64,000 nt of DNA from an uncultured beta proteobacterium (GTDB lineage Bacteria > Pseudomonadota > Gammaproteobacteria > Burkholderiales > SG8-41), in the NCBI GenBank assembly GCA_903889565.1, contig CAISYC010000049.1:1-64000 (forward strand), given 5' to 3'. The notes under the pieces were generated by a model. That model worked only from the letters and a program-made list of their open reading frames with translations. It was not told the origin of the DNA and ran no database searches. Each line of letters starts with the position of its first letter. The stretch's first letter is position 1. Positions 1 through 13,848 of the stretch are shown here, in pieces. The position numbers and the translations under genes were made by a program.

Positions 1-1261
1 GGGCTGCGCTATGGGGACCGATGCGCTCGGCCTTGGCGAGCAGCCGTGCGCTTTCGCGCGAGGGGTTGAAGATGCGATCGGCGTGCTCGATGGCGAAGGT
101 GCCCTTACGCTCTGACTTCGGATGCCGGCGCAGCATTTGGCCGGTGGCATCCAGAATCTCGATGTCGCGCTCGAAGATGCGCACCGTGACCTCGCTGTGC
201 GGGGCGGCCGGCAGTGCGGCGTAGTAGGAGCTCTCGACCTGAACGAGCCCGGCGTCGTCCACCGTGCGCGTAGCCTGCTTGAAGTAGCGAAACCCCTGAA
301 GTGGCAAGGCGCGCAGGTGCGGCTGCTCCTCGCGGTACATTTCGAGCACCTGGCGCTTCTTGCGCCCGTGGATACGCAATGCTGCCCACCGCTCCTCCCA
401 GTGCGCGAGCCACGTGTTCTGCGCCTCGATCGAATCGAACTTACGGCCCTTCAGCGCGGTGCTCTGCGTATGCCCAATTGCGTTCTCGACCGTGCCTTTG
501 CGATTCGGATCACCGACGCGGCAGGGGTCGGCCACCACGGCGTAATGCGAGAGCATCGCGGAATACACCGGATTCAATTCCGGGGCGTAAATGTCGGTGC
601 GTATCACCCCTTCCTTCAGGTTATCGAGCACCACATATTGCGGACATCCGCCGAAGGCGCGAAACGCTTCTTCGTGCAGCCGCGCCCAGATCTCCTGACT
701 GGTCTTCCACACCACCTTGCGGAAACTCTTGCCGGAGAACTTCAAGGTCATCACGAACAGGTACGGGCGCCGGTACTTGCCGGCGCGGTACAGCGTCAGC
801 GCCCCCTGCCCGTAATCGACCTGCGCCTCTTCGCCGGGCAGGAATTCCAGCACATCGAAGCGCTCGGGGGCGCGGGCCTTCAACTTCGACACGAAGCGCT
901 TCACCGTGTTGTACGCGTGCGCGAATCCGTGGGTTTCCACCAGGTCCTGGTAGATGCTCACCGCATTGCGGCCGAGCCCGACCTGCACTTCGATCCAAGC
1001 CCGGTGCGGCTCGCACGCCGAGGGCGTCACCCGCGTGGCCGCGGACGCCGTGGCGCCTTCCGGAGCCGGTGGCCGGGGTGGGGGAATTTGACCGGCCGCG
1101 ACTTCAGAGCCGGTGGCCACCCCGGGGGAATTTGAAAGCCGTTGGTAACGGCGGATCGTCTTGCGATCCACCCCCGTAAAGCGTTCGACCTCGCGCTGCG
1201 TGGCCCCGTTGTCCAGCAGCGTCTGGATGGCGGTGCGTAAATGTGGCTTCAAGACGTTCAA
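1..1261 (-). CDS. istA: IS21-family transposase (IstA-like), 3' part cut by the window edge
   Basis: The frame is open from a TTG at 1261 to the window edge (about 420 codons). A strong purine-rich RBS (GGGGAGGAAGGA) sits just before the TTG. The N-terminus holds a helix-turn-helix (TQREVERFTGVDRKTIRRY). A DDE integrase core follows: VDYGQG near residue 147, VVLDNL near 208 and KGTVENAIG near 255. This is the IstA architecture of the IS21 family. The partner ATPase gene istB would lie beyond position 1 and is not seen. Oddly, the linker after the HTH is encoded by two 23-bp copies of the element's own end repeat (1068-1090 and 1112-1134). Confidence 0.9.
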   Translation of the reverse strand, partial: MNVLKPHLRTAIQTLLDNGATQREVERFTGVDRKTIRRYQRLSNSPGVATGSEVAAGQIPPPRPPAPEGATASAATRVTPSACEPHRAWIEVQVGLGRNAVSIYQDLVETHGFAHAYNTVKRFVSKLKARAPERFDVLEFLPGEEAQVDYGQGALTLYRAGKYRRPYLFVMTLKFSGKSFRKVVWKTSQEIWARLHEEAFRAFGGCPQYVVLDNLKEGVIRTDIYAPELNPVYSAMLSHYAVVADPCRVGDPNRKGTVENAIGHTQSTALKGRKFDSIEAQNTWLAHWEERWAALRIHGRKKRQVLEMYREEQPHLRALPLQGFRYFKQATRTVDDAGLVQVESSYYAALPAAPHSEVTVRIFERDIEILDATGQMLRRHPKSERKGTFAIEHADRIFNPSRESARLLAKAERIGPHSAA

Positions 1262-1391
1262 TCCTTCCTCCCCTCGTTTGTGAGGGGGCGAGGGTAACGT
1301 CTCGTCGCCGGTGAGCCGCGGCTTAGCCGATACTACGCGGGCTCAGGTGGGGGAATTTGGGGTGGCCACAGCTGGGGGAGTTTGGGTGGCC
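1068..1391. repeat. IS21 end with four copies of a transposase-type repeat
   Basis: The core is GGTGGCC, then about 5 nt, then GGGGGARTTTG. Copies at 1068-1090 and 1112-1134 lie inside the transposase gene; their 5-nt centres are GGGGT and ACCCC, reverse complements of each other. Two more half-overlapping copies are at 1346-1367 and 1371-1391, outside the gene. IS21 elements are known for multiple terminal repeats bound by the transposase. The outermost copy marks the IS boundary, near 1391-1396, where the flanking gene loses its own sequence. Confidence 0.75.
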
Positions 1392-1719
1392 GCCGGGGCG
1401 TCTTCACACATAGACTCAACGCTTCAGCGACAGTGTATCTGCGGACATTCGTGACTTGGTGTTTTTGGTAATACGCGTCTTTGAAGATTACGTTCTTCCT
1501 CCCACCGCTCACCTCATGGATCACTTCATCACCTTCTTCGATCCATGCGTGGTTTACGGCTTCGTCCTGTCGTAGTGCAGCTACGTTACCGTGAACGACC
1601 CGGTAGTCGTCTGGGAATTCGAGGACGGTCGGATCTTCGATGAATTTGATAACAGCCTCGAAGCAGTCCCCCGTTGGAGTTGGGGGATCAGGTCTGTTTC
1701 GTTTTGATGAGGCTGACAT
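1333..1719 (-). pseudogene. Small protein with GDC...HAW motifs, 3' end replaced by IS21 insertion
   Basis: ATG at 1719 is preceded by AGGAGT at good spacing; an upstream in-frame start at 1836 lacks this. The native part reads from MSASSKRNRPD to about LCVKT. After that the frame runs into the IS end, giving the proline-rich tail PKLPQLWPPQIPPPEPA. The body carries GDCF, VVHGNV and NHAWIEEGDEVIHE. This spacing of Cys and His resembles small phage or plasmid proteins of unknown function that conserve a Cys, VHG and HAW(V/I)E. A papain-like fold is possible, but I do not assign one. It reads in the same direction as the primase-helicase gene upstream. Confidence 0.6.
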
Positions 1720-1866
1720 TGCCACTCCTGGGGTGCCGGGCCTTAGGAATTTCACTCTGTTTTCTCTATATATAATATTAGAAATTTCAATTCTTCCTAA
1801 ACCATTGTTTTGCCGTACGAATCGCCCAAGTGCCAACCCACGAGTTTTTCAAATTCGTGGGTTCCT

Positions 1867-4800
1867 TCAAGCCGCTTTTTTGACCCGGATTCCCTTGAAG
1901 CTAGGGCAGTCGGTTGCCAAGTTCTTGTCAAATTCCCCACCCTGCCAATCCACCGGCTTACCCAGCGAACACGAGTTACGGTCAAAGTAAACGCAACTGC
2001 TGCACACATCCTTAGGCACCAGTAGCTCCCCGACTGACTTCTCTTCACTCACGGGATAGCTTTTGTGTTCAACCGGCCATTGGTCCAGTCGTTGGGCTTT
2101 CAGCTCCAGAAACTGAATCATCCCAGGCAAATCCCAGTTTCCCGGCACCAATGGTTTGGAATAATCCGTTTCCCTTCGTTCGTCCACAATCCTCACCCCA
2201 AAGAACACTCCCAGAGGCTCCAGGAGGTCTTTTACGAGGCTGCACGCCACAGCCTGCACCTTCGCCCTGTCGTTTTTGCTACCGAATTTTCTAGCGCGTT
2301 CTCGGGCCTCTTCCAAGGTCTTGAACTTTCGTTTCAGCGCCAAGTATTCCAACTCCCCATTCGCCAGCGCCAGAAACCCCTCAGACAGCTTCTCGTTCCT
2401 GGTCAAACTCGCAGCCAATCCAAACCCATCCATTGTTCCAGGCCCGAGTTCCTGGATTTTCTTCAGCACCACGGTTATTCCCCAGGTTTTCTCAGCTACA
2501 GCCCCAGCCCAACCATCTACCGTCTCCGGGTCATACTGGGCTGAAACCCAAGGCAGGCGTTCTCCGAACAGTCGTTGAACCTTGGACAGGTCCACCTGCT
2601 TTGCCTTGGCCGGTTCATCCAGCCCACAGAGTTTTAGGGCAACAGCCTGGGCATCAGTCTGGATCTCCAACTCGACCCTTGCGTTCTCAGCCATCCAGTT
2701 GTCCCGGCGCTCCTCATGGAGCTTCTCGAGCTTCCAGAAATACAGATACGGCAAGTCGTAGTTCAATTCCCCGGCCCGTTCTGTAATGGCACCAAGGTAT
2801 TCGTTTTTGGCAGCTTTTTTAACCGCCTGGTAAATCTTGGCTCTGTCTTTGTTTACCGTGATCTCTTCCCCAGTCGTAATTCGATAATTCTGGAACGAAT
2901 CGTTTTCAATTAACTCCCCCAAAGCTCCAGCCGTGTTTTTCTCGACCAAACGAAGCTGGCTATACACATTCCGGTCGATTTGCAGATGTTCCTCAAGCAA
3001 CCCCCTAAGGATCGTTTCCTGCAAAAACCCTTCCTCAACCTCTTTTTTAACCTCCAGCGTCTTCGGCAGCTTTACCGGTTCCTCGTAGACCGTCCCGACA
3101 TAAACTCGGACTTCACACTGGACGCTGCCACGATTAGCACGGTTCACTGTCTGAATAATCTGGTTGGTGTCTGCCTTCAGGTGTTCGAAGCTGCACCAGA
3201 AGATTTCCGGTTCGCATTCAAAGTTAAGTCCAAGGGAAAACAACGGACTTGAGATCAGAATAGGTTTCGACCCAGTTCTCGCTGCCTCAATCTCTTCGCC
3301 GGTGTTTTCGATTCTGGAAACCACGTCGGCGTATTCCAACAAGCCGTAGGACGCCAAGAGGTTCACGTAAGTCTTCATTCGAGACGTAGGCACAATCAAC
3401 ACGGTTCTTGGTAACGCCTGTTGTGCCTTCACACGTTCCGCAAAGTCCTCCAGCAACGTAACCAAATCCGAGCCAAACGCCTCCAGTGGACGGATGAACA
3501 ACGGATTACGCTTGACCGGCTGAAACTCGTAAACACAGAAGTCCTCGACAGACCCCAAGGCACGGGAGGCAACATCCACGAGTTTCAACTGCTGAACCGT
3601 GGTCAGCGTTCCAGTTAACAACAGGGTTCGACCCGCCTTCATCACGGCGTATTCCAGCAACTCATTGCGTCTATTCGAACGCATGAACTCATCCAAGCCA
3701 GCGTGGATTTCGTCGAGTATTAAGTGGTGCCTTACGTCTCTTTCGTAGGCAATTCCAAGTATCCGGCGCAAAGATTCATTGGTCGTGACGATTACCCCGT
3801 AGTCCGGGAAATTGCTCCTCCACACCTCTTTATAGGACCACGGGTTCAGCCCTGCTGCTTCAAGATCGGCCTGCATTTGGTTCACCAAGGCGATGGTCGG
3901 AGCCGCATAGATCACCAGTTCTCCAGCACCGAGTGGTCGAATCCAGTCAATGGCTTGCCGGGTTTTACCAGTCCCAGTAGGGGCTAAAACAAGGGAAACT
4001 CTCGCCGTTGCAAAGTCCCTAAAGGCAGGCAGGTAACCGGTGTCCGTCAAAGACAATTCCTCGCTCGGAACCTCGTTAAACCAGCGCAGTGTGTCCCGGA
4101 CATAGCGGTGAGCACCCTCAGACAGTTCCTTCAAAGCCATGGAAACACCATCGCCGTAACGACGAGCAATCTGTGGCTGGTTCTTGGCTACAAACCAGGA
4201 GCCGGGAGTGTTTTCATCGTCAAAACGTAGGACAAAATACTTGTCTTCGCCCGTCAGTTTCCCGTCAAGGAATGTCCTGCCACCTCTGGCTTGGCTGGTT
4301 GGATTCGTGAAATACGAACTGGCAGCAACACCGGTTAATGTTCGGGTAATCACGGTTCGGCTTACAAACCCGTGTTCCCGTAACCATGCCGAACGAATGC
4401 GATGCTGGAGTGAATCAGCATTCGCCACGACGTTCTCAGCCAACTCCGGGACCTCAACGCAGTGCTTCGACTTCTTGATTAAGTCCTGGCGTTTCTCCGG
4501 TTCCAGAAGACAACGAACACCCTCGCCAATGTCTGGAAGAGCCACGTAATGTGCTTGGACGGCGGATCTAATCGGCGCTGGATCGATGCCATATTTCAGA
4601 TCCCAAACGTTGCCCTTGTTTTGCCTGAACCAGTAAAACCCAGTGTTCAGGCAATGCAATCTCAAATGTGCTGCCAATGCGTCACCCGGAACACGTTTCG
4701 ATAACCAGAAGAACAGGTGAACGTTCAAGCCCTTTTTCTTAAGGGTTCCGTCTGGCCCTAGGATTCCGGAACTACTGCTGAACTGGTAGAAATACGTCAC

Positions 4801-5253
4801 CCCCTCGAACTCCGCAGGGAGTTTCGCAATTACCCATTCGATTGCTTCCACTGACAACGGATCCATTCCCTCCAGCAACTCAACATCGTCAATGTCCAAC
4901 ATGACCCACGGCGTTCCAGCCGAGTGCTCCGGGAAATTGGTGCCGTTCCTCGCAACGTTTATTTCTTGTCTTAATGGGTGAATCCCACGGACAAGGATCT
5001 TGTGGGAGTCGCGGGAAATGCCGTCGATCAGGTTTGCCAGGTCACAAATGTTGGCAGCTGGGTAAACCGCAGCATCGAACCTGGCTGCGTTTTGATATGG
5101 CGTGGTCTTGAGCTGACCTTCAGCATTCAGAAAATATTTCTTGTTGACCGGATGATCTCGAGAGGTGAGAACTGTGATGACTGAAACATTTTCTTGTTTA
5201 TTTTCTTGTACTTTTTTGTCGCTTGCGTTAAAATAACTATTAGATACTTTCAA
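1867..5253 (-). CDS. Primase (AEP/PrimPol-like)-SF2 helicase fusion, replication protein of a mobile element
   Basis: A 1128-aa protein. The N-terminal part looks like an archaeo-eukaryotic primase: an acidic motif WVMLDIDDVEL with D120, D122 and D123, an SSSSG turn near 160, GLNVHLFFWL with H179, and GIDPAPIRS near 223. The centre is an SF2 helicase: Walker A APTGTGKT (424-431), DEIH (514-517) and the TGT motif near 547. The last 50 residues hold four cysteines (1084, 1087, 1095, 1116) that could bind Zn or Fe-S. Such fusions serve as self-sufficient initiators of plasmids, phages and satellites. The start is uncertain: TTG at 5253, with no clear RBS. Lower GC than the chromosome supports transfer. 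Confidence 0.8.
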   Translation of the reverse strand: MKVSNSYFNASDKKVQENKQENVSVITVLTSRDHPVNKKYFLNAEGQLKTTPYQNAARFDAAVYPAANICDLANLIDGISRDSHKILVRGIHPLRQEINVARNGTNFPEHSAGTPWVMLDIDDVELLEGMDPLSVEAIEWVIAKLPAEFEGVTYFYQFSSSSGILGPDGTLKKKGLNVHLFFWLSKRVPGDALAAHLRLHCLNTGFYWFRQNKGNVWDLKYGIDPAPIRSAVQAHYVALPDIGEGVRCLLEPEKRQDLIKKSKHCVEVPELAENVVANADSLQHRIRSAWLREHGFVSRTVITRTLTGVAASSYFTNPTSQARGGRTFLDGKLTGEDKYFVLRFDDENTPGSWFVAKNQPQIARRYGDGVSMALKELSEGAHRYVRDTLRWFNEVPSEELSLTDTGYLPAFRDFATARVSLVLAPTGTGKTRQAIDWIRPLGAGELVIYAAPTIALVNQMQADLEAAGLNPWSYKEVWRSNFPDYGVIVTTNESLRRILGIAYERDVRHHLILDEIHAGLDEFMRSNRRNELLEYAVMKAGRTLLLTGTLTTVQQLKLVDVASRALGSVEDFCVYEFQPVKRNPLFIRPLEAFGSDLVTLLEDFAERVKAQQALPRTVLIVPTSRMKTYVNLLASYGLLEYADVVSRIENTGEEIEAARTGSKPILISSPLFSLGLNFECEPEIFWCSFEHLKADTNQIIQTVNRANRGSVQCEVRVYVGTVYEEPVKLPKTLEVKKEVEEGFLQETILRGLLEEHLQIDRNVYSQLRLVEKNTAGALGELIENDSFQNYRITTGEEITVNKDRAKIYQAVKKAAKNEYLGAITERAGELNYDLPYLYFWKLEKLHEERRDNWMAENARVELEIQTDAQAVALKLCGLDEPAKAKQVDLSKVQRLFGERLPWVSAQYDPETVDGWAGAVAEKTWGITVVLKKIQELGPGTMDGFGLAASLTRNEKLSEGFLALANGELEYLALKRKFKTLEEARERARKFGSKNDRAKVQAVACSLVKDLLEPLGVFFGVRIVDERRETDYSKPLVPGNWDLPGMIQFLELKAQRLDQWPVEHKSYPVSEEKSVGELLVPKDVCSSCVYFDRNSCSLGKPVDWQGGEFDKNLATDCPSFKGIRVKKAA

Positions 5254-5643
5254 TGTAATAACTCGTTAATCAAAGCCAACTCGGTAGTCTTTCGCAAAAT
5301 CGCTATCGAGTTGGAATTACAGGCTCTCCCTCAGTTTTTCCTTGAGCCTTTCGGTGCTTCTAGAGGGAAATTTCCGCGACAGTCCTATACTGAAGCGAAA
5401 ACAAAACAACGACCGGTGACGCGACTAACGTCACTGGTCTTTTCAATTCAAGTTTTATTTATTGATCTGATCCTGAACGGTCAGATTCTTTTTCTGCACC
5501 TGCTTTCTTTTACTTACATCACCGAATGCGTTGTCCGGTGCGCAATACTTTTAGTATTCTATCAGTACGGGGCCGCTTTTTCAATGACGAAGACATACGT
5601 GTCCACAACACCTCTATAGCTCTCTGAGCTCTTTCCCTAACCG
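5254..5643. other. 390-bp AT-rich intergenic region of the mobile element
   Basis: No convincing gene. It contains the 5411-5443 hairpin, a small palindrome AATACT-TTT-AGTATT (5549-5563) and a bulged hairpin near 5464-5490 (TCTGATC/GGTCAGA). The primase start and its regulation must lie here. Just inside the primase gene the string ATTTTCTTGT occurs twice in tandem (about 5188-5211), so an iteron-like origin is possible, but two copies are weak evidence. Confidence 0.4.
5411..5443. terminator. Hairpin terminator, probably bidirectional
   Basis: Stem GACCGGTGACG (5411-5421) pairs with CGTCACTGGTC (5429-5439), with one G-T pair and a 7-nt loop. TTTT follows on the + strand. On the minus strand the stem is followed by GTTGTTTTGTTTT. 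It can end the 6209-5644 regulator operon before the primase-helicase gene, or a short + strand RNA. Confidence 0.6.
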
Positions 5644-6012
5644 TTAGATCCGACTGAGTTGTTCAGCCAGAACCACCGGGATTTCGAAGAACTCATGCTC
5701 CCACCACGGCCCTGATTGCAGGTCTTCCACCTCAAAACAACTGTAATCCGAGACCAACGTTACAAAGCGCGTTGGAACATAAGCCGTGCGGATCCATTCA
5801 AGGATTTCCGCCTGAGTCACACCGTAACGTTCAGCCGCAACCTCGACATCTCCTGAACACGCAATCGCGTCCCTGACATCATTCTTGCCGAACTCGATGT
5901 CTTCCTGCATTTCGCTGGCGAGTCCGGAGTAATGCAGGATGGTCGTTGGTCCACTGAGGGGTTTGTCTTTGCTGCCCACTACGCGATATTGAATGAAGTC
6001 CAGGGCGTTCAT
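5644..6012 (-). CDS. Hypothetical protein, 122 aa, partner of an HTH regulator
   Basis: ATG at 6012 overlaps the stop of the upstream HTH gene (ATGA), so the two are translationally coupled. The protein is acidic. Its middle reads VAAERYGVTQAEILEWI, which looks like a helix-turn-helix of the kind found beside phage-type repressors. The C-terminal half is rich in aromatic and acidic residues (GPWWEHEFFEIP). I do not recognise the family. The context suggests a regulatory partner or phage/plasmid early protein. Confidence 0.65.
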   Translation of the reverse strand: MNALDFIQYRVVGSKDKPLSGPTTILHYSGLASEMQEDIEFGKNDVRDAIACSGDVEVAAERYGVTQAEILEWIRTAYVPTRFVTLVSDYSCFEVEDLQSGPWWEHEFFEIPVVLAEQLSRI

Positions 6013-6209
6013 TGAACCGCCTCCTCGACCTTACGGAGTTCCTCAAACGGCACTCCACTCAATTCCGATAACTGTTTTGCCTTATCGTAATTCGGCACGA
6101 ACCCGTTGTTGATCCACATGTAAACCGTGGCACCGGACACTCCGATTCTGTTTGAAACTCGCGTAACTCCTCCCGCCTTCTTAACTGCGGCTCTGATTTT
6201 TTCATTCAT
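6009..6209 (-). CDS. Cro/YdaS-like helix-turn-helix regulator
   Basis: A 66-aa protein whose centre, AGGVTRVSNRIGVSGATVYM followed by WINNG, matches small Cro-like (YdaS-type) DNA-binding proteins of prophages and integrated elements. AAGGAGAA sits at good spacing before ATG 6209. It is the first gene of a minus-strand operon with the 122-aa protein. Upstream lies the inverted repeat GAAAAACT-TTTTG-AGTTTTC (6235-6254), a plausible operator for autorepression. Confidence 0.8.
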   Translation of the reverse strand: MNEKIRAAVKKAGGVTRVSNRIGVSGATVYMWINNGFVPNYDKAKQLSELSGVPFEELRKVEEAVQ

Positions 6210-6234
6210 AAAATTCTCCTTATTGTTTTTATGC

Positions 6235-6254
6235 GAAAAACTTTTTGAGTTTTC
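6235..6254. promoter_or_regulatory. Candidate operator of the Cro-like regulator
   Basis: Inverted repeat with arms GAAAAACT and AGTTTTC around TTTTG, 26 bp before the regulator's ATG, in very AT-rich DNA that also carries TATATTTATTTTAG. The position fits autoregulation; the binding protein is inferred from context. Confidence 0.4.
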
Positions 6255-6426
6255 CTATATTTATTTTAGTTTGTGATTTGCCGACTTGATGAAATTTCGG
6301 GAATAATTTTTGAGGGCGAAAGGTGGCCTCGCCTGAACACCGTTGGAAGGTGAGAATTTGTCAGGGAAAGGACTAGAGACGGGGGAGTAGAGCTAGCAGG
6401 AATGGTTACGGCACAAGGAGGGACGC

Positions 6427-6879
6427 TTAAGTCGCCACCCCGACCGTATACCTGAACGACAGGTTCTCGATGTTCCTAAGAACCCACTTTTCAGCCTGGC
6501 GAACGTAGTAAAGCCGTAGCTTCCCCGTGACCTGAACCGCGTCTTCATCCTTCTTGGGATTGTTGTGCGTGGTCATGAACACCGTGACCGTTGCCGTGCT
6601 TGGCGTGGATTCGGTTTCAAGCACTTCGACCTGCTTGAATTCATCGGCATCGAACGTCCACTCAGTCGGATCACTGTTGTCCGATGCATCCGTAATCACG
6701 ACAACATGACCCACAACGTCCCGTATGATTTTTTCTACGGGGATTGGTTGACCTTGCTTGTCCTGACTGGCAGTTGGAATTGTTGAATTCTTATAGTCGT
6801 CGGTAGTGGACTGTGGGGTCGGGGAACAACCAGACAGGGCCAAGGCGAATGGGATTACGACGAACGCAAGACGTGTCAT
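6427..6879 (-). CDS. Predicted lipoprotein, unknown function
   Basis: A 150-aa protein with a signal peptide ending in the lipobox LALSGC, so it should be lipid-anchored after Cys18. The mature part starts with a Ser/Thr/Gln-rich linker, then a compact domain ending in LRLYYVRQAEKWVLRNIENL. That pattern of strands resembles small NTF2-like or periplasmic beta-rich domains, but I cannot name the family. It is the last accessory gene before the tRNA. No RBS is obvious. Confidence 0.65.
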   Translation of the reverse strand: MTRLAFVVIPFALALSGCSPTPQSTTDDYKNSTIPTASQDKQGQPIPVEKIIRDVVGHVVVITDASDNSDPTEWTFDADEFKQVEVLETESTPSTATVTVFMTTHNNPKKDEDAVQVTGKLRLYYVRQAEKWVLRNIENLSFRYTVGVAT

Positions 6880-7093
6880 AGCGAACTTCAGAAGGTTGCC
6901 GATTAAACCAATACTGCTTCCGACTTTGCTTGCTGTCCACCCCGACTAGCCGTGGACTAAACCTGGGGGTGGGTTGAGGACGCTCGGATTGTTGGCAAGC
7001 AACAGTCGGCCAGGTTGGACTTACAATGGACTTACGACCGAATTTGCTCTAGATTTGCATCTATCGAAATCGACACTAACCATTTGTTTTAAA

Positions 7094-7171
<78 letters not shown>

Positions 7172-7231
7172 ATTCAGGTCGATTGCAGATAGCGATCCGC
7201 GCACATGCGATGCTGTTGTGGCGTCGCTGGA

Positions 7232-8200
7232 TCAGAAATTTCGCGATACCGCGAAACTGGCCAATTGTAGCAAATAATCGCGCTGTTTAGAATTCGGCAC
7301 GCAATCAAGCGCCCTTTGCGCCGCCCGCGCCTCGGCTTCGGCCTGCTCGCGGGTGTAGTTAAGCGCACCGGTGCGTTCGATGGCGGCAATGATCTGCGGC
7401 AACTCGTCGAGACCGCCGCGTTCGATCGCGCGCTTGACCAGCGCGCGCTCATCGGCGTTGCCGTGCTTGATCGCATACAGGAGCGGCAGCGTCGGCTTGC
7501 CCTCGGCGAGATCATCGCCGACGTTTTTGCCGGTGTCTCGGTTGTCGCCTGAATAGTCGAGCACATCGTCGATCAGCTGGAATGCGGTGCCCAGATGCAT
7601 GCCGTAGTGCGCCATCGCCGTTTCCTGCGCCTGGTCGGCGCCGCCGAGTATGGCGCCGAGGCGGGTCGAGGCCTCGAACAGCTTGGCGGTCTTGTAGCGA
7701 ATCACCTGCAGATAGCTTTCTTCCTCGACCTCGGGGTCGTGGCAGTTCATCAACTGCAGCACCTCACCCTCGGAGATGATATTGGTCGCCTCGGCCAGCA
7801 CCTGCATTACGCGCATGCTGCCGATCTCGACCATAATCTGAAAGGCGCGCGAATAGACGAAATCGCCGACCAGCACGCTCGCCGCATTGCCGAACAGTGC
7901 GTTGGCGGTGGACTTGCCGCGGCGCAGATCGGAGCCATCGACGACGTCATCGTGCAGCAGGGTCGCGGTGTGAATGAATTCGACCACGGCGGCCAGTTGA
8001 TGGTGGTGGCTGCCCTCATAACCGAACGCGCCAGCCGAGAGGATGACGAGCGCGGGACGCAGCCGTTTGCCGCCGCTGCCTATGATATGTTCAGCCACCG
8101 TGCGCACGAGAACGACATCCGAGTCGAGGCGGCGCCGGATGACCGCATCGACCGCCTGCATGTCGGCGGCCAGGAAATCGCCAAAAACAGGAATGGTCAT
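7232..8200 (-). CDS. ispB: Octaprenyl diphosphate synthase
   Basis: A 322-aa trans-polyprenyl diphosphate synthase that makes the side chain of ubiquinone from FPP and IPP. Both Asp-rich motifs are intact: DDVVD (84-88) and DDVLD (211-215), with GGKRLRP (43-49) and the KTAKLF segment typical of long-chain synthases. Length is normal for IspB. It is divergent from rplU-rpmA, the standard order in beta- and gammaproteobacteria, and marks the start of core chromosome beyond the tRNA. Confidence 0.96.
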   Translation of the reverse strand: MTIPVFGDFLAADMQAVDAVIRRRLDSDVVLVRTVAEHIIGSGGKRLRPALVILSAGAFGYEGSHHHQLAAVVEFIHTATLLHDDVVDGSDLRRGKSTANALFGNAASVLVGDFVYSRAFQIMVEIGSMRVMQVLAEATNIISEGEVLQLMNCHDPEVEEESYLQVIRYKTAKLFEASTRLGAILGGADQAQETAMAHYGMHLGTAFQLIDDVLDYSGDNRDTGKNVGDDLAEGKPTLPLLYAIKHGNADERALVKRAIERGGLDELPQIIAAIERTGALNYTREQAEAEARAAQRALDCVPNSKQRDYLLQLASFAVSRNF

Positions 8201-10233: not shown

Positions 10234-11352
10234 ATGACGACCGAACTGGCACATGCGCAACGCCTGGTCGCGAAAGTCGGCAGCAGCCTCGTCACCAACC
10301 GCGGCCAGGGCCTCGACCATGAAGCGCTGACGCGCTGGGTGCTGCAGATCGCCGAACTGCGCCGTCTCGGCCGCGAAGTCATCCTGGTTTCGAGCGGTGC
10401 GATCGCCGAGGGCATGCAGCGCCTCGGCTGGAAAAAAAGACCGAGCGCGGTCAACGAACTGCAGGCCGCGGCCGCGGTCGGCCAGATGGGCCTGATCGAA
10501 GCCTATGAATCGCGCTTCCGCCAGCACGGCCTGCTCACTTCACAGATCCTGCTGACACACGAAGATCTGGCCGATCGCAAACGCTATCTCAACGCGCGCT
10601 CGACGCTGCGCACGCTGCTTGATCTCGGCGTCGTGCCGATCATCAACGAGAACGACACGGTCGCCACCGACGAAATCCGTTTCGGCGACAACGACACGCT
10701 CGGCGCGCTGGTCACCAACCTGGTCGAGGCGGATGCGCTGATCATCCTGACCGATCAGAGCGGCCTCTATTCGGCCGATCCGCGCAAGACGCCGGATGCG
10801 ACGCTGATCCGCGAAGCCGTCGCCGGCAGCCCCGAACTCGAAACGATGGCAGGCGGCGCCGGCAGCGAGATCGGGCTCGGCGGCATGCTGACCAAGGTGA
10901 TCGCGGCCAAACGCGCGGCGCGCAGCGGCGCGCACACGGTCATCGCGTCCGGCCACGAACAGAACATACTGGTACGGCTGGCGGCGGGCGAACATATCGG
11001 CACGCTGCTGCGCGCGGCGACGCCGACACTGGCGGCACGCAAGCAGTGGATGGCCGATCATCTGCAGGTACGCGGCCGCCTCACACTGGATGCCGGCGCG
11101 GTCAAGGCGCTGCGCGAACTGCGCAAGAGCCTGCTGCCGATCGGCGTCACCGCGGTCGGCGGCGAATTCGAACGCGGCGAGTTGGTTGGCTGCTGCGACG
11201 AAGCGGGCGTTGAAATTGCGCGCGGCCTCGTTAACTACAGCGCCAGCGAGGCGCGGCGGGTGCTGCGCACGCCGTCAGCCGAGATCGAGTCGAAACTCGG
11301 CTATGTCGGCGAACCCGAACTGATTCACCGCGACAATCTCGTGCTGCTTTAA
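10234..11352 (+). CDS. proB: Glutamate 5-kinase
   Basis: 372 aa. It catalyses the first step of proline synthesis, ATP-dependent phosphorylation of glutamate. The amino-acid-kinase domain starts [14 protein letters not shown] and includes [21 protein letters not shown] and [13 protein letters not shown]. The C-terminal third is a PUA domain, as in E. coli ProB. It lies 47 bp after obgE in the same direction, so the two may be co-transcribed. No proA is in the window. Confidence 0.97.
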
Positions 11353-11397
11353 AGCGGCATTCGCCCTGCCGATTTGGCTGCGCAACGATCGCGCGGG

Positions 11398-11910
11398 TTA
11401 ACGCCGGCCGTAGCGCAGCAGTTGCAGGATTTCGCGCAGGCTGCGCGGGCGTACATTGCTGCCGCAGAAAAAATCGCCTGCAAGCACAAGTCGCGGCGCA
11501 CTGCCGCTTCTGGCCTCAATCGGCAACCATTGGCTGTCGCGCGCAGGCGACCAGCCGCCGCCGCGGGTGCCGAACGCATAATTGCGCTGCTGCCGCGTGA
11601 GGCAGGAAATACCCTCGAACGAAACGTTCTCGGCGCCGCCCGAACTGCGCACGACCATGACATAGCGAACCATCTCATCGGCGACGAGCGAAAGCGTATC
11701 CGCGTCAATCAGAAACCGGTTGCCGGTGGCAGCATCGGCCGAAAACTCCACCAGGCTCGCTGCCTTCGGAAACGGCGGCGGCGCGACATCCTCCTGCGGC
11801 CGCGCCTTGACGTCGTATTCCTGCTCCTCGGTATCGGCTTTCGAGCCGCCCAGATGCGAGCATGCGGCCAGCGCGCCCAGCATCAAAACCGATACAAGCC
11901 GGCGCATCAA
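11398..11910 (-). CDS. CNP1-like family lipoprotein
   Basis: A 170-aa protein with signal peptide and lipobox (LGALAACS). The rest matches the CNP1 family (cryptic neisserial protein), typical of betaproteobacteria next to proB and rppH. It includes NRFLIDADTLSL, RYVMVVRSSGGAENVSFEGI and SCLTRQQRNYAFG. Function is unknown; it should sit in the cell envelope. Its start overlaps the stop of the DUF3501 gene upstream by 4 bp, so it may be read as the last gene of the rubrerythrin operon. Confidence 0.85.
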   Translation of the reverse strand: MMRRLVSVLMLGALAACSHLGGSKADTEEQEYDVKARPQEDVAPPPFPKAASLVEFSADAATGNRFLIDADTLSLVADEMVRYVMVVRSSGGAENVSFEGISCLTRQQRNYAFGTRGGGWSPARDSQWLPIEARSGSAPRLVLAGDFFCGSNVRPRSLREILQLLRYGRR

Positions 11911-12491
11911 GACGCGAGGTCCTTCACCAGCGCGGCGCGGATGCCGGCATCGACCTCGGTGCCGACCGAATATTCGGGGTGATCGACGCCGGCCGCCAGG
12001 CGCGCGCCGGCAACGAGCGCCTGCTTCATTGCCGCGGTCAATTCGAAACGCACGAAATGCACTGCCGAAGTCTTGTCTGCGTTTTCGCGCTCGAGATCTT
12101 CGTCGGCAATCGCATTAACGCGTTCGTGCCCGTCAACCTGTACCCACACGCGATCCTCGACGCCCTTCAGGCGCGCCAGCATGACGTGACGCTCCGCAAC
12201 GTCCGGATATTCGATCATCAGCGTTGCCTTCCAGTTGCTGCCGTCGGGAATCAGCGGATTGTAGGCGTCGAGCTCGTCGCGTATGCCCTCCTCCTCGAAG
12301 ATGCGTTCAACGCGCAGCATTTCCTGCACCTGGTAGCGCACCGTCAGCGCGTCCTCGAAGATCAGCGTGACATGGTCGCCGAGCGCGAGGGTGCGGTGTT
12401 TCTTGTGCGCGATCACCTGCTGGCGGAATTCCGGACGCGCCTTCGAATAGGCTTCAAGCGTCATCAAATCGCCGGGCTGCAGTTTGTTCAT
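11907..12491 (-). CDS. DUF3501 family protein
   Basis: A 194-aa cytosolic protein starting MNKLQPGDLMTLEAYSKARP, with RRxV-type basic segments and DELDAYNPLIPDGSNWKATL, features I associate with DUF3501. This family is almost always encoded with rubrerythrin and a heterodisulfide-reductase-like Fe-S protein, as here. The biochemical role is unknown. A part in peroxide or oxidative-stress handling is inferred from the neighbours. It starts 7 bp after the Fe-S gene. Confidence 0.85.
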   Translation of the reverse strand: MNKLQPGDLMTLEAYSKARPEFRQQVIAHKKHRTLALGDHVTLIFEDALTVRYQVQEMLRVERIFEEEGIRDELDAYNPLIPDGSNWKATLMIEYPDVAERHVMLARLKGVEDRVWVQVDGHERVNAIADEDLERENADKTSAVHFVRFELTAAMKQALVAGARLAAGVDHPEYSVGTEVDAGIRAALVKDLAS

Positions 12492-12498
12492 GGTGTCC

Positions 12499-13848
12499 TC
12501 AGAGTCCGTAAGCGGTTCTCAGCAAGGTCAGAGGATGCGCGAGTTGCGCCGCCGTCTTGCCGCTTTCTTGCAATCCCTGTTCGATGTGGCGGCCGCCGAG
12601 CTGGCAGTCGGAGGCCACCCAGTCCGCCTCGCCGCCGCCGGGAAACTCGCCCATCGCGCGAAACACCGGCTTGCCGATTTTCATCGCCATCGCGTGAAAC
12701 TCCTTCTTGCAGCCCCAGCTGCCGGAGTGGCCGGAGCAGCGCTCCACGGTATTGAGCTTTTCCTTCGTCGCCAGCTGCAGCACCTCGCGCGTCTTCTGCC
12801 CCATGTTCTGCACACGCAGATGACAGGCGATGTGGTACGAGACCCGGCCGAGATCCTGCTTGAAATCGGTTTTCAGCAGGCCGTCCTTGTGCCGCAGCAT
12901 CAGATATTCGAACGGATCGAACATCGCCTCGCGCACGGCCTTGACGTTCGCATCCTGCGGGAACATCAGCGGCAGCTCCTGCTTGAACATCAGGGTGCAC
13001 GACGGAATCGGCGTAACGATGGCGTAGCCCTCGCGCGCCAGCTTCGCCAGCGGCGGAATATTCCGGCTCTTCAGTGCAGCGACGGCTTCGAGATCGCCGA
13101 GTTCGAGTTTGGGCATGCCGCAGCAGGCCTCTTTCTCGACCAGCGTCCACGGAATTTCATTGTGCTCGAGCACTTTGACCAGATCGCGGCCGATGCCCGG
13201 TTCGTTGTAATTGATATAACAGGTCGAGAAGATGGCGACCTTGCCCGGCGCGCGCGTGCCTTCGCGAACCACGTTCGATTTGCTGGCACCGGCGGAGGCG
13301 CGAAAGGTCGGCGATTCATAAGAAGGAATCCACGCCTTGGCATCCACACCCAGCGTTTTTTCCATCACGGCGCGGGCAACGCCGTTGTGATTGGCCGCAT
13401 TGACGAACTGAACCACCACCGGAATCGATGCGAGTTTGCCCAGCGCATCGGTGGCCGACATGAATTTGTCGCGCGCGCGCGCGCCGCCCTGCTTGTACTT
13501 GACTGCCTTGGCGCGCAGCATCAGATGCGGAAAATCGAGATTCCACGGATGCGGCGGCACATAGGGACACTTGGTCATGTAACAGACATCGCACAGATAA
13601 CACTGATCGACGACCTTGCCGAAATCCTGCTTGTCCACACCGTCGAGTTCGCCGGTCTTGCCTTCGTCGATCAGATCGAACAGGGTCGGAAAAGAACCGC
13701 ACAGGCTGACGCAGCGTCGGCAACCGTGGCAGATATCGAAGACGCGGTGGAGTTCCGCGTTGAGCTTGTCCTCGTCATAGAAGTCCGGAGACTTCCAGTC
13801 AAGCGGGTGCCGGGTTGGCGCTTCCAGACTGCCTTCGCGTACGGTCAT
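12499..13848 (-). CDS. Heterodisulfide-reductase/GlpC-like Fe-S protein of the rubrerythrin operon
   Basis: A 449-aa protein with two [4Fe-4S] ferredoxin motifs, C40-x2-C-x2-C-x3-C50 and C83-x2-C-x2-C-x4-C94. A CCG-type cysteine-rich domain follows (KEACCGMP), and then a variant one (CSGHSGSWGC). It resembles GlpC and heterodisulfide reductase subunit D and probably passes electrons to the rubrerythrin. ATG 13848 is chosen because the upstream in-frame TTG at 13884 falls in the T-run of the preceding terminator. Confidence 0.9.
   Translation of the reverse strand: MTVREGSLEAPTRHPLDWKSPDFYDEDKLNAELHRVFDICHGCRRCVSLCGSFPTLFDLIDEGKTGELDGVDKQDFGKVVDQCYLCDVCYMTKCPYVPPHPWNLDFPHLMLRAKAVKYKQGGARARDKFMSATDALGKLASIPVVVQFVNAANHNGVARAVMEKTLGVDAKAWIPSYESPTFRASAGASKSNVVREGTRAPGKVAIFSTCYINYNEPGIGRDLVKVLEHNEIPWTLVEKEACCGMPKLELGDLEAVAALKSRNIPPLAKLAREGYAIVTPIPSCTLMFKQELPLMFPQDANVKAVREAMFDPFEYLMLRHKDGLLKTDFKQDLGRVSYHIACHLRVQNMGQKTREVLQLATKEKLNTVERCSGHSGSWGCKKEFHAMAMKIGKPVFRAMGEFPGGGEADWVASDCQLGGRHIEQGLQESGKTAAQLAHPLTLLRTAYGL

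Follow-up and report, generated by a model that had tools for sequence, protein, structure and literature searches.

A candidate primase-helicase replication initiator with a four-cysteine tail in an integrated element of an uncultured beta proteobacterium

The window analysed, 64,000 nucleotides of contig CAISYC010000049.1 of an uncultured beta proteobacterium (assembly GCA_903889565.1), carries near its start an integrated element with a gene for a candidate replication initiator, here named rep. The original prediction, made from the sequence alone, had placed a single-chain primase-helicase at positions 1867-5253. This chain was recovered as one open reading frame (ORF) on the minus strand; a plus-strand reading of 1867..5253 was ruled out by 20 stops in frame. 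The gene product joins an archaeo-eukaryotic primase (AEP)-like domain, a superfamily 2 (SF2) helicase core, a helical region and a module of four cysteines (Cys4).

1867..5253, minus strand: rep, with AEP primase, SF2 helicase, helical region and Cys4 in this order; 1128 aa, TTG start
4459..5181, minus strand: predicted AEP primase domain, residues ~25-265, with D120, D122, H179, D224, R229 and H235
3094..4026, minus strand: SF2 helicase core, residues ~410-720, with Walker A 424-431, DEIH 514-517, G548-T549 and QIIQxxNRxNR 698-708
2083..3063, minus strand: C-terminal region, residues ~731-1057, helical for the most part in a model of low confidence, no recognised family
1906..2004, minus strand: Cys4 module, C1084, C1087, C1095 and C1116, spaced C-x2-C-x7-C-x20-C

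Primase, helicase and cysteine module in one chain

The DxDD motif (120-123) and the histidine at 179 on which the prediction had been built were both present in the translation at these residues. AEP motif I, hhhDhD/E, is represented by VMLDIDD (117-123), motif II by H179 and motif III by I223-D224. In the alignment of the four full-length members of the clade described below, the window protein and three orthologues, D120, D122, H179 and D224 were invariant, as were R229 and H235 following D224. A motif IV arginine is described for the PrimPol-PV1 supergroup in the accessible text of PMC5862659, and by our own reading of the sequence R229 may correspond to it. Among 19 aligned N-termini, R89-G90, W116, D120, D122 and L145-P146 were kept in every row and D224, Q233, A238 and P240 in nearly all; the motif II histidine was not present in all 19, and most alphaproteobacterial rows had another residue in the R229 column. 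Searches with the window protein found no AEP family in Pfam and no match to PDB sequences, both up to E 1, and the AEP profile (A7) gave a single apparent chance match in the PDB. The N-terminus matched phrog_24712 (E 4.5e-8) and phrog_16950, annotated as DNA primase (E 1.1e-7), in PHROGs; the C-terminal part of phrog_16950 was matched by another gene of the same genome (G000:C30:4386-5651, E 3.5e-83).

An alphaproteobacterial relative (L009) led to 21 records of phages of Proteus, Vibrio and Providencia. Three origin-binding proteins (OBPs) of T5-like phages contain the same AEP motif strings, followed by a helicase. Aligned with hhalign, the AEP profile matched the T5-like OBPs at E 2.7e-19. 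The clade profile (A3) matched them over its residues 51-711 with a probability of 99.0 (E 5.8e-18), primase preceding helicase in both; this match does not extend to the region between the helicase and the Cys4 tail. Comparison of A7 with a single S-2L PrimPol sequence, as a possible link to the all3500 cluster, yielded E 0.52. All three full-length orthologues matched phrog_3712, "replication origin binding" (Microbulbifer residues 20-518, E 8e-14), and the OBP of phage PM135 matched Herpes_ori_bp (PF02399) at E 1.7e-6. An AlphaFold model of residues 22-275, calculated from 16 alignment rows, had a pLDDT of 90.3 and an AEP-like predicted fold. In the structure comparison with VIA, 47 of the 50 matches listed were titled primase, PrimPol or LigD/NHEJ polymerase domain. 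The remaining three, HP0184, a poxvirus D5 entry and a replisome-Pol alpha chain, were judged fitting; HP0184 is an AEP according to the accessible part of PMC8065100. A "Replication origin binding protein" of a Salmonella phage ranked third (E 3.5e-11) when the model was compared with predicted viral proteins. The motifs, the profile match to the T5-like OBPs and the predicted fold agree on the N-terminus as an AEP-like primase domain, as had been proposed, with predicted primase activity.

The proposed SF2 core was confirmed by a Pfam DEAD match (PF00270) over residues 418-555 with 38.6 bits, the cut-off being 26, and by Walker A, DEIH and QIIQxxNRxNR (motifs I, II and VI), which were invariant in all four full-length clade members. 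ResIII also scored above its cut-off (28.7 vs 22.5 bits), PHROGs assigned residues 415-678 to the DNA helicase family phrog_16, and weak profile matches linked the helicase part to structures of Ski2-like, RadD and herpes OBP proteins.

The four-cysteine cluster was found at the predicted residues, and C1084, C1087, C1095 and C1116 were kept in the three other full-length orthologues, thus invariant in 4/4; two further copies of the gene, in Tepidiphilus and on another contig of the window's genome (C73), stop short of this region. The cluster is more than a chance occurrence: when the protein was shuffled 5000 times, 14 of the shuffled sequences held a pattern C-x2-C-x5-9-C-x12-30-C at any position. 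The pattern was seen in 0/12 relatives outside the clade: the nine alphaproteobacterial-type relatives checked (L008, L009, L020-L026; the check left out L011, L019, L028 and L029) and, with looser spacing, the three T5-like OBPs. Among the proteins examined the module is confined to the clade, and therefore marks the clade and is not general to AEP-SF2 proteins. No Pfam family scored above its cut-off in any of the four tails. Zinc is our guess for the metal. An iron-sulfur cluster has a precedent in the modules of primase large subunits (accessible text of PMC5862659). Its presence here is nevertheless unlikely, given a short CxxC...C...C tail at the end of the chain, the lack of an Fe-S or PriCT match in Pfam and the more common occurrence of zinc in such tails.

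The element at tRNA-Pro and its relatives

The surroundings of rep confirmed the predicted integrated element. The following features accompany the gene.

7095..7171, minus strand: tRNA-Pro (cgg), integration target, intact
7093..7142, no strand: attachment (att) core, 50 bp from the 3' part of tRNA-Pro
6427..6879, minus strand: 150-aa ORF between the helix-turn-helix gene and the att site
6009..6209, minus strand: 66-aa Cro/YdaS-like helix-turn-helix protein, upstream of rep
5644..6012, minus strand: 122-aa gene between the helix-turn-helix gene and rep, 4-bp overlap with the former
1333..1836, minus strand: ORF downstream of rep, 3' end entering the presumed end of an insertion sequence (IS)
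1..1391, minus strand: IS21-like transposase ORF, family assigned by eye; the contig breaks within the ORF

The 50 bp at 7093-7142 of the window contig (C49) recur with 98 % identity at 2025-2074 of another contig of the same genome (C67 of G000). Beside this second copy lies a gene for a tyrosine integrase of 429 aa (C67:607-1896, PF00589 E 1.3e-32); a whole tRNA gene was not present at the att copy on C67. The G+C content is 0.505 at 1867-7092 and 0.489 at C67:1-2024, compared to 0.635 and 0.624 in the flanks. The flanking genes, by eye ispB and ampD, lie on one contig 3.6-4.2 kb apart in 10 of 14 genomes of the same genus; in the other four they were 7.8 kb apart (one), on different contigs (two) or without a match (one). 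In two relatives (L057 of G012, L058 of G005) the flanks of C49 and C67 diverge from one site with an intact tRNA-Pro; both flank queries started with the 50-bp core, so that the 50-bp overlap is there by construction. Because the flanks adjoin at an empty site in relatives, C49 and C67 are most likely the two ends of one insertion with an unassembled middle, a strongly supported assignment. In a further genome (L059, G003:C16), ~4.3 kb of other DNA at ~3813-8091 part the tRNA-Pro from its usual neighbour and are probably a separate insertion into this target.

Of the small genes, the 122-aa gene matched YdaS weakly, under the cut-off, and the 150-aa ORF has by eye a lipoprotein-like start with all matches under the cut-off. 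A Cro/YdaS-like helix-turn-helix gene precedes rep in three of the four full-length cases (window, Pandoraea, Microbulbifer); the window differs in that another small gene separates the two. A 25-bp tandem repeat at 1344-1391 was taken as the IS end. The IS21-like ORF shares 27.7 % identity over 249 aa with an IstA-like ORF beside the Tepidiphilus copy of rep.

A profile scan of genome_contigs revealed 12 relatives, eight distant ones, including the Roseomonas type (L020-L024), and four close ones: Pandoraea captiosa (L015), a Sideroxydans metagenome-assembled genome (L016), an uncultured Microbulbifer (L017) and a shortened copy in Tepidiphilus (L018). The three full-length orthologues, of Pandoraea, Sideroxydans and Microbulbifer, are 38-47 % identical to the window protein. 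In a tree of the AEP domain with 22 rows, these four grouped with the window protein and the C73 copy in one clade with a support of 100/99. The C73 copy (L003:9996-11744; 582 aa, 63 % identity) covers residues 24-581 only and is what remains of a further element of this kind; by eye it adjoins miaB/phoH/ybeY-like genes. The Tepidiphilus copy (within L018:4461-9534) comprises only ~residues 24-170, 2.3 kb downstream of a tRNA-Arg, and is followed by IS21-like ORFs.

The full-length protein type is rare in the genomes sampled. The clade profile, at E ≤ 1e-10 and with the own genome set aside, had matches in 3 of 397 genomes of a phylum sample and 2 of 398 of an order sample, all five spanning the N-terminal AEP part only. 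With the window protein at E ≤ 0.001, 0/59 relatives were matched, the own genome aside, and a class sample (n=369, own genome included) yielded the own genome and two weak matches over residues 385-469. The samples overlap in part, and the window's genome is in both the phylum and the order sample. Single-sequence pattern scans, of limited sensitivity, detected no close relatives in genome_contigs or viral_contigs, and tblastn against phages gave no match at E 1e-5. A supposed firmicute relative, Bacillus safensis, was rejected because by eye its open-ended ORF is almost identical to the Roseomonas protein; the 22-kb plasmid record concerned (NZ_CP015609.1, L010) is likely contaminated or mislabelled. 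A search of titles and abstract starts found no paper on the clade, which is weak evidence, as subscription literature lies mostly outside its coverage; as far as this literature goes, the family is little studied, as had been surmised.

Two sister elements have defined ends. The Sideroxydans element is bounded by two copies, 97 % identical, of 124 bp from the 5' end of a gene that is by eye ychF; they lie ~14.7 kb from each other on the same contig, and one of them adjoins an integrase. The Pandoraea element lies between two copies of the 3' end of guaA (name by eye; 50 + 44 exact bases with one mismatch between) at a distance of 16.5 kb, and has an integrase toward one end. Alongside integrase and Rep, both encode a YqaJ nuclease and a DUF932 protein; a Sak annealing protein is present in the Sideroxydans and a Gp3-like recombination factor in the Pandoraea element. 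The latter also carries a STAND-like ATPase (nSTAND1/AAA_16, L035:5445-6740), a possible defence cargo. In Microbulbifer, the integrase directly follows the RNase P RNA; the stretch compared yielded no second att copy. Neighbours of this rep are a gene with a PAPS-reductase domain (L017:5457-6134) and a 1082-aa ORF (10518-13766), by eye a type I restriction subunit.

The IS21-like insertion at the contig end and the two truncated copies, in C73 and in Tepidiphilus with its IS-like ORFs, raise the question of decay: the window copy may be intact by chance in a dead element. We regard such a relic as somewhat unlikely, since the frame of 1128 aa retains its catalytic residues and the Cys4 module, the integrase frame is open over 429 aa and the att copies are 98 % identical.

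Probable role in the replication of the element

From its architecture and its plasmid-borne relatives, we read the window protein as the replication initiator (Rep) of a small integrative plasmid-like element, with a probability of about 0.7. A precedent for such a role is CyRepA1 (accessible text of PMC9978351). Distant AEP relatives of similar size reside on the circular plasmids p6 (27.9 kb) and pSR-5 (53.8 kb). No other Rep is annotated among 36/36 features of p6 and 57/61 of pSR-5, the PLSDB gene table being incomplete, and a scan of nine other p6 proteins detected no Rep family. These relatives without another annotated Rep are the best support outside the clade for the Rep role. On Roseomonas p6 (L055), the AEP-type gene (3711-8047) is directly followed by a terminase small subunit (Terminase_2, E 3e-33), which hints at a phage-plasmid or satellite origin.

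This neighbourhood bears on a second explanation, in which the elements are phage satellites: Rep would amplify the element after infection by a helper, which then packages it. Satellite P4 is amplified by its alpha protein and packaged by its helper. With 14.7 and 16.5 kb the complete elements are small, and they combine integrase, Rep and recombination genes; the closest whole-chain homologues of Rep are phage OBPs, and the Pfam scan of 12 Pandoraea and 11 Sideroxydans ORFs, smaller ORFs excluded, detected neither relaxase nor capsid genes. The same scan revealed no terminase or other packaging family, and the distant relatives reside on circular plasmids, of which p6 encodes ParA and pSR-5 carries genes for type IV secretion, so we consider a satellite life style unlikely. 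Type IV secretion genes were not among the 23 ORFs scanned in the two elements.

A function in repair, recombination or defence of the element or the host, rather than in replication initiation, could be read from the neighbouring YqaJ nuclease, Sak annealing protein and STAND-like ATPase. The PrimPol of Thermus ICETh2 is dispensable for the replication of its element according to the accessible part of PMC7693054. Against this function stand the co-linearity of the single-chain primase-helicase with phage replication proteins, a scan of ORFs of both complete elements that detected no further Rep family, and the plasmid-borne relatives without another annotated Rep; we consider it quite improbable.

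Several results weigh against the Rep assignment or parts of it. With the window protein alone, phrog_3712 was not among its six PHROG matches up to E 1 and Herpes_ori_bp did not appear up to E 1, which we take as evidence against strict membership in the T5-like OBP family. The VIA Z scores of the AEP model (best 6.7 for 7jkl; human PrimPol 6.7, CAPP 6.4, mpox E5 6.3, RepB' 4.6) were all below 8 and may reflect just a common arrangement, and Foldseek returned no PDB match at E ≤ 0.001 (best E 0.074). The full-length AlphaFold model was poor (mean pLDDT 52) and was used neither for folds nor for metal placement, therefore the C-terminal region and the Cys4 site stand without structural support. 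The plasmid-borne Roseomonas/Skermanella (p6/pSR-5) type is distant, with 21-23 % identity over the whole chain, and has no Cys4 (0/9). Regions around rep were scanned and yielded neither origin iterons nor convincing inverted repeats; the Pandoraea and Microbulbifer flanks contain short repeats, but none in common. Upstream of the Sideroxydans rep no helix-turn-helix gene was recognised, and a search of the window's genome did not find DUF932, which both complete sister elements carry. Finally, the window element is interrupted by the IS and may no longer move.

By its build, the chain would most likely combine at an origin the work of herpes UL9 or a T5 OBP with that of a primase. If the protein acts as Rep, the tyrosine integrase would excise the element as a circle, and the Cro/YdaS-like protein would control the rep promoter. 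Rep would bind the origin of the element, probably via the C-terminal region and the Cys4 tail with its likely zinc, and the SF2 motor would open the DNA in the manner of UL9 and the OBPs. On the strand thus exposed, the AEP domain would synthesise the first primer without recourse to DnaA or DnaG, and the host polymerase III would extend this primer. We infer all of these roles: initiation, origin recognition, priming, unwinding, the metal, and the parts of the helix-turn-helix protein and the host enzymes. That the clade forms a distinct class of single-protein initiators, with origin recognition by the C-terminal region and Cys4, UL9-type melting and AEP priming, and without DnaA, DnaB loading or DnaG, is a tentative proposal to which we give somewhat less than even odds. 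If true, it would be a bacterial-element counterpart of the herpesvirus/T5 mode of initiation. The protein unites a helicase of the UL9/T5 OBP kind with a built-in primase in small bacterial elements. Because the ends of two elements are defined, the sufficiency of the AEP-SF2 fusion for starting a replicon is testable with one gene and its flanks, and the Cys4 tail offers a handle for separating origin binding from catalysis.

Comparison with known systems

The order of the domains had been taken to suggest a compact replicon initiator. The order itself is present but not new: primase-SF2 proteins are already known from the T5-like OBPs and from a group of all3500-like AEPs, which the accessible text of Kazlauskas et al. 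(2018, PMC5862659) describes as fused to remote SF2 helicases that have UL9-like relatives. Membership in the CyRepA1 family (Slr7037 of the cyanobacterial plasmid pSYSA; NF042913) was rejected, with 14.2 bits against a cut-off of 200 bits and a match of the helicase part only. Other relatives of the AEP domain carry other motors, D5_N/DUF5906 in L019 and L029 and an ATPase that is by eye VirE-like in L011.

The alphaproteobacterial proteins of Roseomonas (WP_265548393, 1181 aa) and Skermanella (WP_203104484, 1164 aa), both plasmid-borne, resemble the window protein in a related AEP domain followed by a P-loop and in their length. They differ in an identity of only 21-23 % over the chain and in the Pfam helicase match, above cut-off in neither of the two. 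With the all3500-like AEPs of the PrimPol-PV1 supergroup, of whose cluster it may be a member, as far as the accessible text of PMC5862659 describes them, the window protein shares the motif II histidine, the fusion to a remote SF2 helicase and the residence in integrated mobile elements; the combination of motif II His and motif IV Arg, a trait of that group, is present as H179 and R229 in 4/4 clade members, with R229 placed by our own reading. A Cys4 tail, in contrast, is not mentioned in this text. The T5-like OBPs of phages PM135 (ATW69929), pVp-1 (AFB83889) and PR1 (AQT25206) likewise unite an AEP-like and an SF2 domain in one chain with the same motif strings. However, they are shorter (925-929 aa compared to 1128 aa), lack such a Cys4 in 3/3 cases and are phage genes, whereas rep of the window belongs to an integrative element. 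Thus the primase-SF2 fusion is already known, and new is the Cys4-tailed clade in compact integrative elements.

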